Shown one piece after another: positions 6 to 5,482 of a DNA stretch of 5,482 nt (its first letter is position 1; every line of letters begins with the position of its first letter). A program made the translations under genes and the position numbers. Origin of the DNA: Aquificota bacterium (GTDB lineage Bacteria > Thermosulfidibacterota > Thermosulfidibacteria > Thermosulfidibacterales > B14-G1); NCBI GenBank assembly GCA_015486015.1, contig WFSL01000007.1:1-5482 (forward strand). The letters are read 5' to 3'. Under the pieces are notes generated by a model that was not told the DNA's origin, did not search any database, and worked only from the letters and a program-made list of their open reading frames with translations.

Positions 6-341
6 ATGCCGATTATTGCAAAGGGCCTTGTTTCTGCAGCCATCATTGTGGCCCTCAGTGAGCTGGCCAAAAGACATGCCGTATTGTCTGGGCTCCTTGC
101 AGCCATGCCCCTCACCACCCTCCTGGTGATACTCTGGGTCTATGTAGATACTCAGGAAGTAACCACCATTTACCAGTTCTCCCGGGCGGTTCTGTGGGCC
201 CTCATCCCCACGGCCCTCTTCTTCTTGGCCATGGTTTTGAGCCTGAAGAGGGGCTTATCCTTCTGGCCTGCCCTGGGGGTCTCCATGGGGGTTTGGATGG
301 TGGGGGCTGCTCTCCATCTCTGGCTTTTGGGGGGATGGTAG
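6..341 (+). CDS. DUF3147-family small inner-membrane protein
   Basis: This is a 111-residue, very hydrophobic protein with about four predicted membrane segments (roughly residues 5-22, 26-47, 60-79 and 85-108). The N-terminal pattern SELAKR, then LSGLLAAMPLTTLL and an acidic turn YVDTQE, matches what I recall of DUF3147 proteins, which are short four-helix membrane proteins of unknown function; both length and spacing fit. The start is the ATG directly after an in-frame TAG at 3-5, so the ORF cannot extend upstream. Only five bases precede it, so its ribosome site and promoter lie outside the window. It is convergent with the catabolic gene train and probably unrelated to it. The family call is fairly secure; no biochemical role can be given. 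Confidence 0.8.
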   Translation: MPIIAKGLVSAAIIVALSELAKRHAVLSGLLAAMPLTTLLVILWVYVDTQEVTTIYQFSRAVLWALIPTALFFLAMVLSLKRGLSFWPALGVSMGVWMVGAALHLWLLGGW

Positions 342-347
342 TTAATG

Positions 348-379
348 AAAAGGGGGATGACCCCTCAGGGGGTCATCCC
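348..379 (-). terminator. Rho-independent terminator of the minus-strand gene train
   Basis: A perfect 11-bp inverted repeat (354-364 with 369-379, arms GGGATGACCCC and GGGGTCATCCC) encloses a 4-base loop. Read on the minus strand, the stem is followed by CC and then TTTT (351-348), the expected terminator form, 40 bases after the ligase stop codon. On the plus strand no T-run follows the stem, so it would be at best a weak terminator for the DUF3147 gene, whose stop lies 12 bases before the stem. Confidence 0.82.
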
Positions 380-419: not shown

Positions 420-1808
420 CTAATCAGCCCAAACCTTTTCCCTCTTGTCCACAACTCTCTTGGCTTTGTGGGTAGCCCTAGGAATCTCCCCCTCCCTCAA
501 AATGATAACCCTTCTGGGGGCTACGCCTACTCGGACCTTAATGGCTTCCCGCACCTCTTTGGCAAGCAACTCCGTGTCCATATCCACGCTTTCTAACTTT
601 TCCACTTCTACATCGAAGCGGTCCAGATGCTCTTCCCTATATACCACCATCCGGTACTCACCGGTGAGTCTCTTGTCCTGACGCACTACATACTCTATGT
701 CGCTGGGGAAGACATTGACACCGGTGATGATGAGCATGTCATCCAACCTGCCATGGACCCCCATGATCCTGGGATGGGTTCTGCCGCATTCACACTTTTC
801 CCAGGTAACAGTGACAATGTCACCCGTGCGGAATCGGATCATGGGCCTTGCCATCTTTCTCAGAGTGGTGAGTACCAACTCACCCCTCTCCATATCTCCA
901 ACAGGCTCGAGGGTCTCAGGATCCAGGACCTCCACGATATGGTGGTCTTCATATATATGGAGCCCATTTTGGACCTCACACATCCCAGCATTGGCACCGA
1001 AGAGATCCGAAAGGCCATAGAAGTCGAACAGATCTACGCCCCACAGGTCTTGGATAGCCTTGCGTGTCGCGGGGATAGAACCTCCGGGCTCTCCAGCCAC
1101 TATGAGCTTGTTGAGGTAGAAATCCTTCTTGGGGTCCAGCCCTTCCTTCTTAGCGGTCTCTCCCAAATACCAGGCGTAAGAAGGAGTGGTCCATGTAATG
1201 GTAGCCTTGAAGTTTCGTAGAATGAACAGGAGCCTTTCAGAGGGTATTGTCCCCGCCCAAATCCCAAGCGCACCTGTCCTCATGGCTCCAATGACGTCGG
1301 GTCCACCCACAAAGAGGGTGAAGTTTAGGGCGTGGACGTAGCGGTCATTAGGCCTCATTCCAATGCTCCAGAAGAGGCGGGCTTCATAATCCTGGAACTC
1401 ATCAAGATCCCTGGCAGTGAACGGAGAGGCAGTAGGAACACCCGTAGATCCTGAAGATGCAGAAATATACACTATATCTTCTTCAGGTACACAGACCATA
1501 TCCCCTAAATCAGGCACCGCTTCCTGACGCTCTCGTTCTATCTGTTTGTTGGTAAAGGGAAGGTGCCTTATATCCTCTACAGTCTTGATCTTGTCAGGAG
1601 AAACCCCTGCCTCGTCAAAGGCCTTCTTGTAGTAAGGGGAATTTTCATAGCAAAACTTCACAATATACCTCAACTCTTCAAGCTGGAGTTCTCTAATCTT
1701 CTCAGGGGGCATGGTTTCGATTTCCGGATCCCAATACTTTTCCTTAGGATCAGGCCTGACGTACACCTCCACGCCGATCCCTCCCTGCATTTTGCTCAGC
1801 TCCCTCAT
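420..1808 (-). CDS. Phenylacetate-CoA ligase (PaaK)-like AMP-forming acyl-CoA ligase
   Basis: This cytoplasmic enzyme of 462 residues should activate a carboxylic acid to its CoA thioester with ATP, via an acyl-AMP. Adenylate-forming motifs appear in PaaK order: phosphate loop SSGSTGVPT (118-126), YGLSDLFG (264-271), a CECGRTHPR cysteine pair (339-346), FRTGD (326-330), DDMLIITGVNVFPS (356-369), and a C-terminal HKAKRVVD (447-454) whose Lys448 or Lys450 is the likely catalytic lysine of the second half-reaction. The usual lysine after the glycine of the phosphate loop is Val here. Length is slightly above the usual ~430-440 because of an N-terminal extension. I chose the ATG at 1808 because AGGAGG lies 7 bases upstream; a GTG at 1829 would put that site inside the gene. 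It is last in the train, 20 bases after the AbfD-like gene. The family is confident; the substrate (phenylacetate, another aryl acid or an aliphatic acid) is not determined. Confidence 0.9.
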   Translation of the reverse strand: MRELSKMQGGIGVEVYVRPDPKEKYWDPEIETMPPEKIRELQLEELRYIVKFCYENSPYYKKAFDEAGVSPDKIKTVEDIRHLPFTNKQIERERQEAVPDLGDMVCVPEEDIVYISASSGSTGVPTASPFTARDLDEFQDYEARLFWSIGMRPNDRYVHALNFTLFVGGPDVIGAMRTGALGIWAGTIPSERLLFILRNFKATITWTTPSYAWYLGETAKKEGLDPKKDFYLNKLIVAGEPGGSIPATRKAIQDLWGVDLFDFYGLSDLFGANAGMCEVQNGLHIYEDHHIVEVLDPETLEPVGDMERGELVLTTLRKMARPMIRFRTGDIVTVTWEKCECGRTHPRIMGVHGRLDDMLIITGVNVFPSDIEYVVRQDKRLTGEYRMVVYREEHLDRFDVEVEKLESVDMDTELLAKEVREAIKVRVGVAPRRVIILREGEIPRATHKAKRVVDKREKVWAD

Positions 1809-1828: not shown

Positions 1829-3295
1829 CTATTTTTTAGGCCTGGGTGGTTCTGGTACGTCTGCCTTTATGCCGCCAATCCTCTTGGCCAGCTCCACCCA
1901 TTTCTCCCACGGGGTATTCACCCTTACCATAAGCCTGGCTGCATCGGGGGAACCTCCTCCGTGCATGCAGCCTGGTACCCCTGGGCCTAAGGTAAGCCAC
2001 TCCACTAACCTGGCACCCCGGGCCCTCGTTTCCCAATCCAGCCCTGCTTCTATGTACTTCTTAATTAGATCTCCGTACTTGGGGTCCATAATGTCTTTAT
2101 AGGATGGTAGGCATCCCGTCTCGCCTATGCCACCTGCAATCTCCTGGGCCAAACGGTTTGTCTCATAAGGCAAGGTGGCCACATGCACCTTGTTAGAATT
2201 GGCCAATAGTGAATCGCATATCCAGCAACCCGAAGGGTGCTCTTTCCCCAAGGCAGAAGCGGCCACACCCATTCCGAAGGTGGTCTCGTTGTTGATCTGC
2301 ATCCTGATGAGCTTGTCATAGAAAGTGCGCATAGAGAGCCCATTTGCCCTCGCCATAATGATGGCTGCCCCTACCTTCAGGTCTCCTTGCCCTGCCACGC
2401 ACCCTCCTATGGCCGCTCTATAGGTGGAGGTAAAGTACTGGATCACATTCAGGCAGTACTTGTACTCTCCGCACATGAAGACTCTCTCTTTTGGAACAAA
2501 CACGTCATTGAAAAGAAGGTAAGCTTGGGTGATGCCCCCTATCTCATCGGGGATGTCGAACCCCTCTTCATACTCCCGCATATCACTTGGACGCCTGGTC
2601 TCCACAATAGTAAGCCCTTCTATGTCCTTGGGTACCACAAAGGCTACGGCATAGTCCTTATCGGCTTCTTTATAAGCCCCCCCTGGGAGGCAGAATATCT
2701 CGTTGGCAGCAGCGATGCCGCATATCATGCACTTGGCCCCCCTTACCACAATTCCGTTTTCTCGTTTCTCCACTATGTGCAAGTTGAGATCCGGATCCTT
2801 TTGCATGCTGGGAGGTAGAGCCCTGCTCCCCTTTGCATCGGTGAGGGCGCCTGCACACGTGACGTCGTTGGCCTGGGCATACAAAAGCCAGTTCTTCAGG
2901 CGCTCGTGGTAGTCCGTTCCATACTCCTGATCCATTTCCCAGGTAGTGGCCCATAGAGAGTTTATAGATGTCCAGCCTACGCATCTACCCCCTGTGCATG
3001 TACCTGTGAGGTGATATGCAGCCCTTTTCATCCTTACGTTGTTGATGGCGTCCTCAGCGGATTTAACAATGGAGAGGTAACGAGAGATCTTTTCCCCTGT
3101 GAGGTGTGAGGTGGTGGTGAAGAGGTCGGCATACTCAGGATTGTTGTAGGCCTCGAAGAGCTGAGCGTGGCCGTTTATAGTTCTCCTGGTAGCAGGATGG
3201 GTAGTGACATCCTCAATGAGCTCCCCAAATTTGTAAATGTTGGGGCGCATTTTCCTGAGGCTCTCCCTGTACTCCTCCGCCGTTTTCAGTGCCAT
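1829..3295 (-). CDS. AbfD-like (4-hydroxybutyryl-CoA dehydratase / HpaB superfamily) flavoprotein with altered active site
   Basis: This 488-residue protein has the full length and collinear conserved blocks of 4-hydroxybutyryl-CoA dehydratase/vinylacetyl-CoA isomerase (AbfD): TAEEYRESLRK near the N-terminus, MDQEYGTDYH (121-130), LTDAKGSRALPPSMQKDPDL (151-170), VEKRENGIVVRGAK (175-188), EADKDYAV (210-217), GGCVAGQGD (297-305), PYETNRLAQEIAGG (376-389) and MHGGGSP (444-450). These proteins bind FAD in an acyl-CoA-dehydrogenase-like fold; AbfD also holds a [4Fe-4S] cluster through Cys99, Cys103, His292 and Cys299. Here Cys100, Cys105 and Cys299 are present, but the first pair is CX4C, the histidine position is Tyr292, and AbfD Thr190, Glu257, Tyr296, Lys300 and Glu455 correspond to Cys192, Gln257, Ile296, Val300 and Gly442. 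The alignment is from memory. The cysteines argue against an oxygen-dependent HpaB hydroxylase. I infer a CoA-ester dehydratase, isomerase or dehydrogenase with a different substrate. AGGAGGT lies 5 bases before the ATG. The gene sits between a permease and a CoA ligase. Confidence 0.85.
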   Translation of the reverse strand: MALKTAEEYRESLRKMRPNIYKFGELIEDVTTHPATRRTINGHAQLFEAYNNPEYADLFTTTSHLTGEKISRYLSIVKSAEDAINNVRMKRAAYHLTGTCTGGRCVGWTSINSLWATTWEMDQEYGTDYHERLKNWLLYAQANDVTCAGALTDAKGSRALPPSMQKDPDLNLHIVEKRENGIVVRGAKCMICGIAAANEIFCLPGGAYKEADKDYAVAFVVPKDIEGLTIVETRRPSDMREYEEGFDIPDEIGGITQAYLLFNDVFVPKERVFMCGEYKYCLNVIQYFTSTYRAAIGGCVAGQGDLKVGAAIIMARANGLSMRTFYDKLIRMQINNETTFGMGVAASALGKEHPSGCWICDSLLANSNKVHVATLPYETNRLAQEIAGGIGETGCLPSYKDIMDPKYGDLIKKYIEAGLDWETRARGARLVEWLTLGPGVPGCMHGGGSPDAARLMVRVNTPWEKWVELAKRIGGIKADVPEPPRPKK

Positions 3296-3322: not shown

Positions 3323-4744
3323 CTAATGATCCCCATCTTCCCCCTTTGAAGATTCCTCCTTGGGGGATCCTTTTGCATTATTGGTGAGCTTCTCCTTAAT
3401 GGGGCTCACTCCGTTTTTCATGAACTCAATGGCCAGGAACATGACAATACCTGCTGCCAGCCCCAGGGCCGAACCAGGCTTAGCGGCTATAATAGAACCC
3501 ATAACACCAGAGATACCCCTTTGGATGTTGTTCTCCAGCATTTCCATAGCCAAATAACAGCAGAGCCAGCCCTGAATAGCAAGGGTGAGTGCGAATCCCA
3601 CTTTGAGAGCGGGTTTACATACAGTAACGATAATGGCCAAGCAGAGCGCAATGCTCATACCCCAGAAGAGAGCCGTAGCACCACCCCAATATGTGGGCTC
3701 TTCTTCAGGGCTGCTGTTGATGAACCTGTTTACTACCAAGGCCTCTCCCCCTGTCCACTGAGGTCCTGCCAGGGAAAGGAAAGGAAGGAAAATGGCCTCT
3801 ACGATGTTCCTGATGGCAGTAATGATGTGGGTTCTGTTAGCGGAAAAGACCACGTTTTCATCAGGCCTTTCCCTATTGCACGCATCCACGAGGGACTCTA
3901 AGATGAGGATATCGCCAAACGCCAGGATGTAAGCCATAATTGCTAAGGGAATACCTTTGATCATGAGATCAATGCTGGGAAAACCTACACCTAAGGCGGA
4001 GACCTTGGTTATCATCCCTGAGATGTCCCAGTGGACCAATCCCCAATGGACGACAGGTGGTTTCACTTCTTTAGTGATGAGACCCACAATGTAGCCTACT
4101 ACAAAGGCGGGAGCAATGCCGTACTGGGCGATCCATCTGAAGATCCCATACTGTTCTCTTAGTCTCAGAGCCCTTCTGGAGAAGAGCATAAAGAAGGAAA
4201 AGAGAATGGATACCGAAAGTGTGATAGGCATCTCCGTGAAGAAGGATCCAGGCTTGAAAATCCTGATAATGGATGCCAAACCTGCCCCCAGGAGAATCCC
4301 TGACTTGATAGAGGCAGGAACTATAGCCACCACCTTTTTAGCGATGCCAAAAGCTCCCAAAACCAAGAAGATTAGCCCAACCACTAACTGAAAAGCAATG
4401 AGGGCTTTTAACCTTACAGGGCCAAAAGGGAATTGTAATAGATAACCGATATAAAGAGGAATACCCGCTGTAATCCAGCCCGCTACTGCTGGGTCTCCGA
4501 AAGTGGTGTGAAGCAAGTATAAAAAGTTGTTGATGATTACCATAGTGATAGCGATTCCAAAGGGAATGCCCAGATATTTGGTCATAGCGGCAATTATGCC
4601 CATAGGCACCACAGAGAGAATGGCACCTTGAATAAAGTCAGCCCACTCCATGGGATAATGGACGAAAGGGAGCCTCAGTTTTAGAGGCCCTCCCCAATAG
4701 GGCTGCTCCATACCGTACTCTCTTTTGTACATATAAAACTTCAT
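3323..4744 (-). CDS. Multi-pass permease, probably UraA/SulP-fold (NCS2-like), organic-acid candidate
   Basis: This is a 473-residue integral membrane protein with about 11-14 hydrophobic segments (for example residues 38-56, 58-78, 87-105, 112-132, 137-160, 171-190, 203-224, 263-285, 306-326, 354-376, 379-400 and 411-443). An N-terminal stretch of about 35 polar and aromatic residues precedes them, and a charged hydrophilic tail (446-473) follows. The block LGAFGIAKKVVAIVPASIKS then GILLGAGLASI (129-159) resembles the TM4-TM5 region of nucleobase (NCS2) and SulP-type carriers. The acidic residues in AFGDILILESLVDA (275-288, Asp278 and Glu283) sit where such carriers place a substrate or proton carboxylate. 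The benzoate carrier BenE shares this fold, so an aromatic or other organic acid is a reasonable substrate given the adjacent CoA ligase; this is inference. The ATG at 4744 has AGGAGG 7 bases upstream. Family placement is moderate; membrane transporter is secure. Confidence 0.7.
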   Translation of the reverse strand: MKFYMYKREYGMEQPYWGGPLKLRLPFVHYPMEWADFIQGAILSVVPMGIIAAMTKYLGIPFGIAITMVIINNFLYLLHTTFGDPAVAGWITAGIPLYIGYLLQFPFGPVRLKALIAFQLVVGLIFLVLGAFGIAKKVVAIVPASIKSGILLGAGLASIIRIFKPGSFFTEMPITLSVSILFSFFMLFSRRALRLREQYGIFRWIAQYGIAPAFVVGYIVGLITKEVKPPVVHWGLVHWDISGMITKVSALGVGFPSIDLMIKGIPLAIMAYILAFGDILILESLVDACNRERPDENVVFSANRTHIITAIRNIVEAIFLPFLSLAGPQWTGGEALVVNRFINSSPEEEPTYWGGATALFWGMSIALCLAIIVTVCKPALKVGFALTLAIQGWLCCYLAMEMLENNIQRGISGVMGSIIAAKPGSALGLAAGIVMFLAIEFMKNGVSPIKEKLTNNAKGSPKEESSKGEDGDH

Positions 4745-4801: not shown

Positions 4802-5239
4802 TTATTTGACTACCAAGACTGGACAGGGAACCTTTTCCACAATTCTGTCCACCAATCCGGCTCCAGTTCTTCTGTGGCACCCTACGATTACTAGGTCTGC
4901 ACTAGTTTCTTTCACTGTCTCTGCTACTTCCTTGGGAGGGGCTCCTGCCTTTGCGATGGTTTCGTAAGAATCTCCGGGCTCCATCACTCTGGCAGCAAAT
5001 TCTTTCAGGTTCTCTTCCGCTTTGGACTTTAGGATCAGTTCCAGTTCTTCGGGTTTCTTTCCTAATTGGAGCTCCATAACGTCTGCCTCTGTGAAGAAGA
5101 GGGGTGCAATATAGACTAATGTGATTTGGCAACCAAGTTTCTTTGCCAGGGCTGTGCCATACGCTACGGTTTCAAAAGAGTGTTCTGTGAGATCCACAGA
5201 AATCAAAAGCCTTTTTGGCAATTCTCTGAAAGACTTCAT
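4802..5239 (-). CDS. Universal stress protein (UspA) family, degenerate nucleotide site
   Basis: This 145-residue cytoplasmic protein has the Usp alpha/beta pattern: first strand RLLISVDLTEHS (10-21), helix with YGTALAKKLGCQITLVYI (27-44), middle strand ETIAKAGAPPKEVAETV (93-109), ADLVIVG (114-120) and terminal strand CPVLVVK (139-145). ATP-binding members carry G-x2-G-x9-G-S/T after that penultimate strand. Here the loop reads GCHRRTG, has Arg where the second Gly is expected, is about six residues short and lacks the Gly-Ser, so ATP binding through the classical motif is doubtful. I chose the ATG at 5239, with AGGAGG 8 bases upstream; an in-frame GTG at 5248 falls inside that ribosome site. 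It lies 57 bases before the permease gene, and Usp genes often sit beside transporters. A regulatory or stress role for the cluster is possible but unproven. Confidence 0.9.
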   Translation of the reverse strand: MKSFRELPKRLLISVDLTEHSFETVAYGTALAKKLGCQITLVYIAPLFFTEADVMELQLGKKPEELELILKSKAEENLKEFAARVMEPGDSYETIAKAGAPPKEVAETVKETSADLVIVGCHRRTGAGLVDRIVEKVPCPVLVVK

Positions 5240-5247
5240 CCCACTCA

Positions 5248-5253
5248 CCTCCT
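5248..5253 (-). promoter_or_regulatory. Ribosome binding site fixing the universal stress protein start
   Basis: AGGAGG on the minus strand (5253-5248) lies 8 bases before the ATG at 5239. The longer reading from GTG at 5248-5246 would begin with the last G of this site, leaving no spacing, so the shorter protein is preferred. The 70 bases upstream (about 5255-5325) are strongly AT-rich, but I see no convincing -35/-10 pair there. Confidence 0.8.
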
Positions 5254-5373: not shown

Positions 5374-5482
5374 TTAATCTACTTGGAGCTTCTCCTTTAG
5401 CTTTCCTATGAGAGCGGGTAGCACTTGGGTTGCGTCTCCTACCACCCCAAAGTCGCAGACCTGGAAAAATGGAGCATTGGGG
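5374..5482 (-). CDS. etfA: Electron transfer flavoprotein alpha subunit, C-terminal fragment (cut by window edge)
   Basis: The last 35 codons of a gene entering from the right edge are visible, with the stop TAA at 5376-5374. The peptide begins PNAPFFQVCDFGVVGDATQV and continues LPALIGKLKEKLQVD. The order NAPFF, then D-[FY]-G-x-V-G-D, then a xVLPALI helix is the characteristic end of ETF alpha (EtfA/FixB), part of the C-terminal FAD-binding domain. ETF alpha pairs with a beta subunit to pass electrons from acyl-CoA dehydrogenases and similar flavoproteins toward the quinone pool or other carriers, or to bifurcate them. The beta subunit, if present, would be expected upstream, outside the window. 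The truncation is only the window boundary. Its place ahead of an acyl-CoA-type flavoenzyme supports a CoA-ester catabolic cluster. Confidence 0.85.
   Translation of the reverse strand, partial: PNAPFFQVCDFGVVGDATQVLPALIGKLKEKLQVD

Follow-up and report, generated by a model that had tools for sequence, protein, structure and literature searches.

Which reaction is catalyzed by a protein that has the scaffold of 4-hydroxybutyryl-CoA dehydratase (AbfD) and lacks the residues on which that enzyme depends? The AbfD gene serves as a marker of 4-hydroxybutyrate carbon fixation, and the enzyme catalyzes the key step in the fermentation of GABA/succinate; FAD and an iron-sulfur cluster give one-electron assistance as protons are taken from C-alpha and C-beta of the substrate, after which the C4 hydroxyl is expelled. 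The stretch of DNA analyzed here, 5,482 nucleotides long and referred to as the window, is the entire contig 7 of a 1.62 Mb draft genome and encodes such a protein (the variant; Table 1). A first-pass annotation of the window had proposed a different reaction on a different CoA ester rather than decay of the gene.

Table 1. Coordinates of features in the window and of related loci in other contigs and genomes.
Feature	Location	Strand	Basis or remark
AbfD-fold protein of the variant clade, predicted [4Fe-4S]/FAD type, 488 aa	1829..3295	(-)	ORF, Pfam, structure search, alignment, tree
PaaK-like AMP-forming acyl-CoA ligase	420..1808	(-)	ATG at 1808, AGGAGGT upstream; mechanical ORF runs from GTG 1829
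PurT-like permease	3323..4744	(-)	Solved homologue 7tak, E 9.5e-85
Universal stress protein (UspA family)	4802..5248	(-)	Family scan; conserved in L008, L037, L039
Electron-transfer flavoprotein alpha subunit, C-terminal end	5374..5482	(-)	Gene cut by contig end
Terminator-like hairpin, 11 pairs	354..379	(-)	3' of ligase gene
Small membrane protein, GlpM-like PRK09272 family	6-341	(+)	Convergent with operon
DUF6125 protein	L014 7537-8004		Also at 16 other loci
Operon acyl-CoA dehydrogenases without the usual Glu	L005 5019-6164; L039 14457-15605; L124 2739-3884; L126 4177-5319
Isobutyryl-CoA-mutase-type operon, contig 13	L144 7186-13662		Window's genome (G000)
AbfD-family paralogue, contig 32	L036 8210-11041		Window's genome
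AbfD-family paralogue, contig 22	L035 9391-10845		Window's genome
MttB-family methyltransferase, corrinoid-type protein, PocR-type regulator	L126 290-3703		Upstream of variant operon; no in-frame stop in methyltransferase

Fold and active site of the variant

The variant gene starts with ATG, with a strong site, AGGAGGTG, approximately 6 nt 5' of it. The Pfam domains HpaB_N and HpaB (PF11794 and PF03241) span nearly the whole protein. Among solved structures it is closest to two 4-hydroxybutyryl-CoA dehydratases, 1u8v (E 5.5e-106 over query residues 3-477) and 6vjr. An AlphaFold2 model with a mean pLDDT of 90 superposes on 1u8v over 473 residues (Z 51.8, rmsd 1.8 Å) and on 6vjr with a Z of 53.0. 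Both domains are present at full length and the fold is shared, placing the variant in the HpaB/AbfD superfamily; the full-length likeness to AbfD first noticed in the sequence is borne out, and the structural superposition proposed as a check on it came out favorably.

The active site is substantially altered. The first-pass annotation had assigned Thr190, Glu257, Tyr296, Lys300 and Glu455 of AbfD to Cys192, Gln257, Ile296, Val300 and Gly442, and the alignment reproduces this mapping, with the last position reading as Gly442 or as a four-residue deletion according to the placement of the gap. A further change had been overlooked: His292 of AbfD, which we take from the 1u8v structure to be an iron ligand of the cluster, is Tyr292 in the variant (the acid/base and ligand roles given to AbfD residues throughout are likewise taken as background). 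The cluster cysteines are retained as Cys100, Cys105 and Cys299, in 54/54 variants, with the first pair spaced CX4C rather than CX3C as in Cys99-X3-Cys103 of AbfD. A two-residue insertion brings in Gly394-Cys395; Cys395 is present in 54/54 variants and 0/31 of the other proteins compared, while His292 is absent from all of the former and present in all of the latter. Ser456 of AbfD becomes Cys443, and further nearly fixed switches are Gln101 to Gly, His188 to Met, Thr203 to Gly, Thr354 to His353 and Ala460 to Gly. Every variant has Val300, Cys395 and His353, and 96% have Tyr292 and Ile296 (n=54). The residues His292, Glu257, Tyr296, Lys300 and Glu455 are found in the 27 AbfD-type sequences and are missing from the 54 variants, the one exception being Glu257 in L108 and L109. 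Misalignment does not account for these differences, as block 292-300 is gapless and held in register by Arg293, Cys299 and the Gly/Asp residues on its flanks, and the model superposes along the length given above. The ligand residues and the fold suggest that the variant protein carries a [4Fe-4S] cluster and FAD. The gain of Cys395 maps to a single event on the tree, which suggests, and does not prove, a ligand switch.

A separate clade in bacteria and archaea

Relatives were collected from named contigs and whole genomes, and 85 proteins were compared: 27 have the AbfD residue set CCTEHYCKE and 54 belong to the variant type, the remaining four being other paralogues. In a maximum-likelihood tree the 54 variants come together with support of 100/100 on a long stem (0.94), and the structurally confirmed dehydratases 1u8v and 6vjr fall in another clade. 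The 52 variants with Tyr292 form one group (100/99); L108 and L109 (genomes G524 and G521) constitute an archaeal side branch with Glu292 and Met296, in which Cys395 is kept. The substitutions are fixed clade-wide and are not private to the gene in the window. The clade spans Thermoplasmatota, Bacillota, Zixibacteria and the window's own small phylum, with partial copies in Calditrichota and Desulfobacterota. One contig labeled as a DPANN archaeon (L007) carries the same operon with a variant 82% identical to the query, and is probably mis-binned bacterial DNA.

Within the window's phylum the gene is present in 7/9 genomes at 82-100% identity. Values of dN/dS against three phylum relatives are 0.013-0.038; dS is near saturation, so only their sense, strong purifying selection, is safe to read. 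Decay is rejected on the grounds of this selection, the presence in 7/9 genomes and the clade-wide fixation. A family that is monophyletic, conserved and subject to purifying selection has shed the whole catalytic set together, which makes a different reaction the best reading, as the first-pass annotation had argued; judged by sequence comparison, the variant family very probably performs a reaction other than 4-hydroxybutyryl-CoA dehydration.

Two genomes (G009 and G017) hold variant and full-AbfD-set copies side by side, so the variant is not simply a replacement of AbfD. The window's genome has two AbfD-family paralogues, on contigs 22 and 32, which are 32-36% identical to the variant; they belong to the same family and keep His292, with different residue sets, and the complete catalytic set of AbfD is present in neither. 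On contig 32 the paralogue is grouped with a PaaK-like ligase, an SDR and an HMGL-like protein, with an ABC transporter of the branched-chain amino-acid type opposite. Of 292 Thermoplasmatota genomes sampled, 53 carry the variant (53-69% identity), and only three others hold a more distant family member (E <= 1e-60). Since the variant is thus what 53/56 of the genomes with a strong match carry, AbfD marker calls in this phylum are probably wrong. Database labels that name variant genes dehydratases are likely to be in error. A candidate dehydratase has been reported for Thermoprofundales (PMC6461988).

Gene neighborhoods of the variant

Seven loci of the window's phylum share the gene order acyl-CoA dehydrogenase, EtfB, EtfA, (universal stress protein, PurT-like permease), variant, PaaK-like ligase; EtfB and the dehydrogenase lie beyond EtfA in these relatives, where the window ends. 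The ligase holds the same position in L004-L008, L037 and L039, and a permease is also found near the variant gene in L008, L037, L039, L120, L123 and L124. The first-pass annotation had asked whether the substitutions define a clade that co-occurs with such a ligase and permease: the clade is the fully supported one described above, and both genes recur. At the level of sequence, the substitutions, the clade and a conserved operon of acyl-CoA dehydrogenase, EtfBA, ligase and often permease are established. The hairpin 3' of the ligase gene, which has the strongest stem among 11 terminator-like sites found in the window (5.8 expected), is likely the end of the operon. An Rfam search of the window gave no match.

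The operon acyl-CoA dehydrogenase of the window's phylum and of two Dethiobacteria (L124 and L126) does not have the usual catalytic Glu, IPSGGTSQ, IPSAGTSD or ISSAGTTE replacing the IYEGT motif, while the enzymes of Thermoplasmatota and L127 keep it. Two neighboring flavoenzymes with changed catalytic residues lend support to an unusual substrate. Ligase, permease, dehydrogenase and ETF recur in L124, and ligase and permease in a further Dethiobacteria locus, L123. Upstream of the variant operon in L126 lie genes for an MttB-family methyltransferase, a corrinoid-type protein and a PocR-type regulator.

The Thermoplasmatota operon runs dehydrogenase, AMP ligase, EtfBA, DUF6125, variant; divergent from it are genes for an adenosyltransferase, a mutase large subunit and a B12-binding subunit. 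The mutase has the motifs RQFAGFG and AQKSYIFPP, that is, the Phe/Gln pair that we take to mark isobutyryl-CoA mutase (Tyr/Arg presumably marking methylmalonyl-CoA mutase). Among the 292 genomes, 53 have the variant, 39 a close mutase and 32 both, against approximately 7 expected (odds ratio 50, Fisher p 5e-22, with shared ancestry not removed). The window's genome has a complete Phe/Gln-type operon on contig 13, comprising an acyl-CoA dehydrogenase, adenosyltransferase, mutase, two-subunit CoA transferase, B12-binding subunit and MeaB-like protein. A second mutase, of the Tyr/Arg type, is encoded on contig 10. In most Thermoplasmatota the DUF6125 gene immediately precedes the variant, in many cases with an overlap or a gap of only a few bases, and it is close upstream in a Zixibacteria locus too; despite this tight coupling it is absent from the window's genome, which argues against DUF6125 as a required partner.

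A full C4 locus is found in the clostridial genome G009. It holds genes for an acyl-CoA dehydrogenase, a 3-oxoacid CoA transferase, 3-hydroxybutyryl-CoA dehydrogenase (Hbd) and a crotonase, these four being named by eye from sequence with no family scan. It also holds EtfBA, a sigma-54 regulator, a membrane reductase of the CCG/Fer4 kind and a butyryl-CoA:acetate-type CoA transferase, together with the variant, the permease and a thiolase. As all the usual steps from butyryl-CoA to acetyl-CoA are accounted for, the variant would be an extra step feeding or leaving this pool. A butyryl-CoA:acetate-type CoA transferase gene also adjoins the variant in L120 and L126. The variants of Oscillibacter/Eubacterium (L017, L020 and L130; 48% identity) adjoin genes for pyruvate:ferredoxin oxidoreductase subunits and a TRAP transporter.

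Proposed reaction, alternatives and known systems

The full C4 locus of G009 is the main ground for placing the substrate at the C4 level, which is most likely, judging from gene neighbors only. Counting against it, the mutase operon of the window's genome lies elsewhere, on contig 13, with its own dehydrogenase; 21 of the 53 Thermoplasmatota genomes with the variant are without the close mutase; and the Oscillibacter neighbors do not indicate C4. The cofactor sites are kept and none of the acid/base residues is, so the most economical reading is the same acyl-CoA activation without loss of water; no hydroxyl would be expelled from C4 because the residues serving that step are gone. We favor, at somewhat less than even confidence, a sister clade of 4-hydroxybutyryl-CoA dehydratase that has kept the fold and the three cysteines and rebuilt the active site, and that acts on a C4-level acyl-CoA by AbfD-type chemistry with no water expelled. 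The PurT-like permease would take up an acid, and the PaaK-like ligase (a CoA transferase in Clostridia) would make its CoA ester; the variant would then act at C-alpha/C-beta by one-electron chemistry of the AbfD type. The net outcome could be a redox reaction with ETF, an isomerization or the elimination of a group other than water. Cys395, alone or together with Tyr292, may be the fourth cluster ligand in place of His292, Tyr292 and Cys395 together replacing parts of the double role of that residue. The product would enter the butyryl-/crotonyl-CoA pool, which the acyl-CoA dehydrogenase and ETF would link to electron carriers. The wider proposal is put forward a little more tentatively: the variants may be a second, widespread class of AbfD-fold iron-sulfur flavoenzymes, with the His ligand exchanged for a new Cys, that carry out an undescribed radical conversion of a C4-level acyl-CoA without water loss and thereby contribute to anaerobic metabolism of the (iso)butyrate type in both bacteria and archaea.

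Several alternatives were weighed against this C4-level conversion. The missing acid/base residues would be explained if the leaving group needed no proton, as in an AbfD-like gamma-elimination lyase that releases, for example, the quaternary amine of a 4-substituted butyryl-CoA to give crotonyl-CoA. The flavoprotein BbuA, which eliminates trimethylamine from gamma-butyrobetainyl-CoA, is a precedent (PMC8364193); the methyltransferase and corrinoid-type protein of L126 give the idea some weight, as does the butyryl-CoA:acetate-type CoA transferase beside the variant there and in L120. We nevertheless consider such a lyase unlikely, as the methyltransferase was seen at a single locus, the operons showed no betaine carrier, and no amine genes lie near the variant in Thermoplasmatota or the window's phylum. 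An aryl or arylacetyl-CoA substrate, which the PaaK-like ligase would suggest, is somewhat less likely again. The best structure scores of the ligase are indeed to PaaK (4r1l, E 3e-82), yet it reaches 311 bits against the PaaK equivalog cut-off of 646 and has the loop GEPGxS-P in common with 2-hydroxyisobutyryl-CoA synthetase (6hdw); in other lineages the variant is accompanied by another AMP ligase or by a CoA transferase of the C4 type, genes of aromatic pathways were not seen, and the wider neighborhoods point to C4 acyl-CoA metabolism.

It is improbable that the variant is still a 4-hydroxybutyryl-CoA dehydratase or a vinylacetyl-CoA isomerase with a rearranged active site: the 42% identity to the Clostridium aminobutyricum enzyme, the common fold and the C4 context would suit this, and are set against the five residues that separate the 27 AbfD-type sequences from the variants and the two genomes that hold both kinds. 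Equally doubtful is a role without substrate conversion, in which the protein would carry electrons for the acyl-CoA dehydrogenase/ETF pair or support it structurally. The constant company of that pair and the lost acid/base residues are consistent with such a role, but many of the new residues are strictly fixed, and at L100 and L114 DUF6125-variant pairs occur with no acyl-CoA dehydrogenase nearby.

If the variant is active, it illustrates the re-tooling of an iron-sulfur flavoenzyme scaffold and makes an unassigned step in the anaerobic metabolism of short-chain acids accessible to direct testing. We found no open-access text that joins AbfD with the gene set of the variant or with isobutyryl-CoA mutase. 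Like AbfD of C. aminobutyricum (1u8v) and Nitrosopumilus maritimus (6vjr), to which it is approximately 42% and 38% identical, the variant has the full-length fold, the three cluster cysteines and a CoA-ester context. It differs in the changes at His292, Thr190, Glu257, Tyr296, Lys300, Glu455 and Gln101, in the CX4C spacing, in the additional Cys395 and in its separate clade, and in some genomes it occurs beside AbfD-type copies; assignment as a canonical 4-hydroxybutyryl-CoA dehydratase is rejected on His292, the catalytic residues and the tree alike. The 4-hydroxyphenylacetate 3-monooxygenases (HpaB) share its Pfam domains and fold (Z ~40), whereas identity to them is approximately 24%, against 42% to AbfD, and the variant lies beside ETF genes in apparent anaerobes. 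The cluster cysteines, which Thermus thermophilus HpaB does not have, are kept in the variant; on these and on the identities an HpaB-type flavin monooxygenase is rejected as well. BbuA resembles the variant as a flavoprotein of broad acyl-CoA dehydrogenase fold that acts on a C4 acyl-CoA, and belongs to a different family, with approximately 10% identity to AbfD (PMC8364193).
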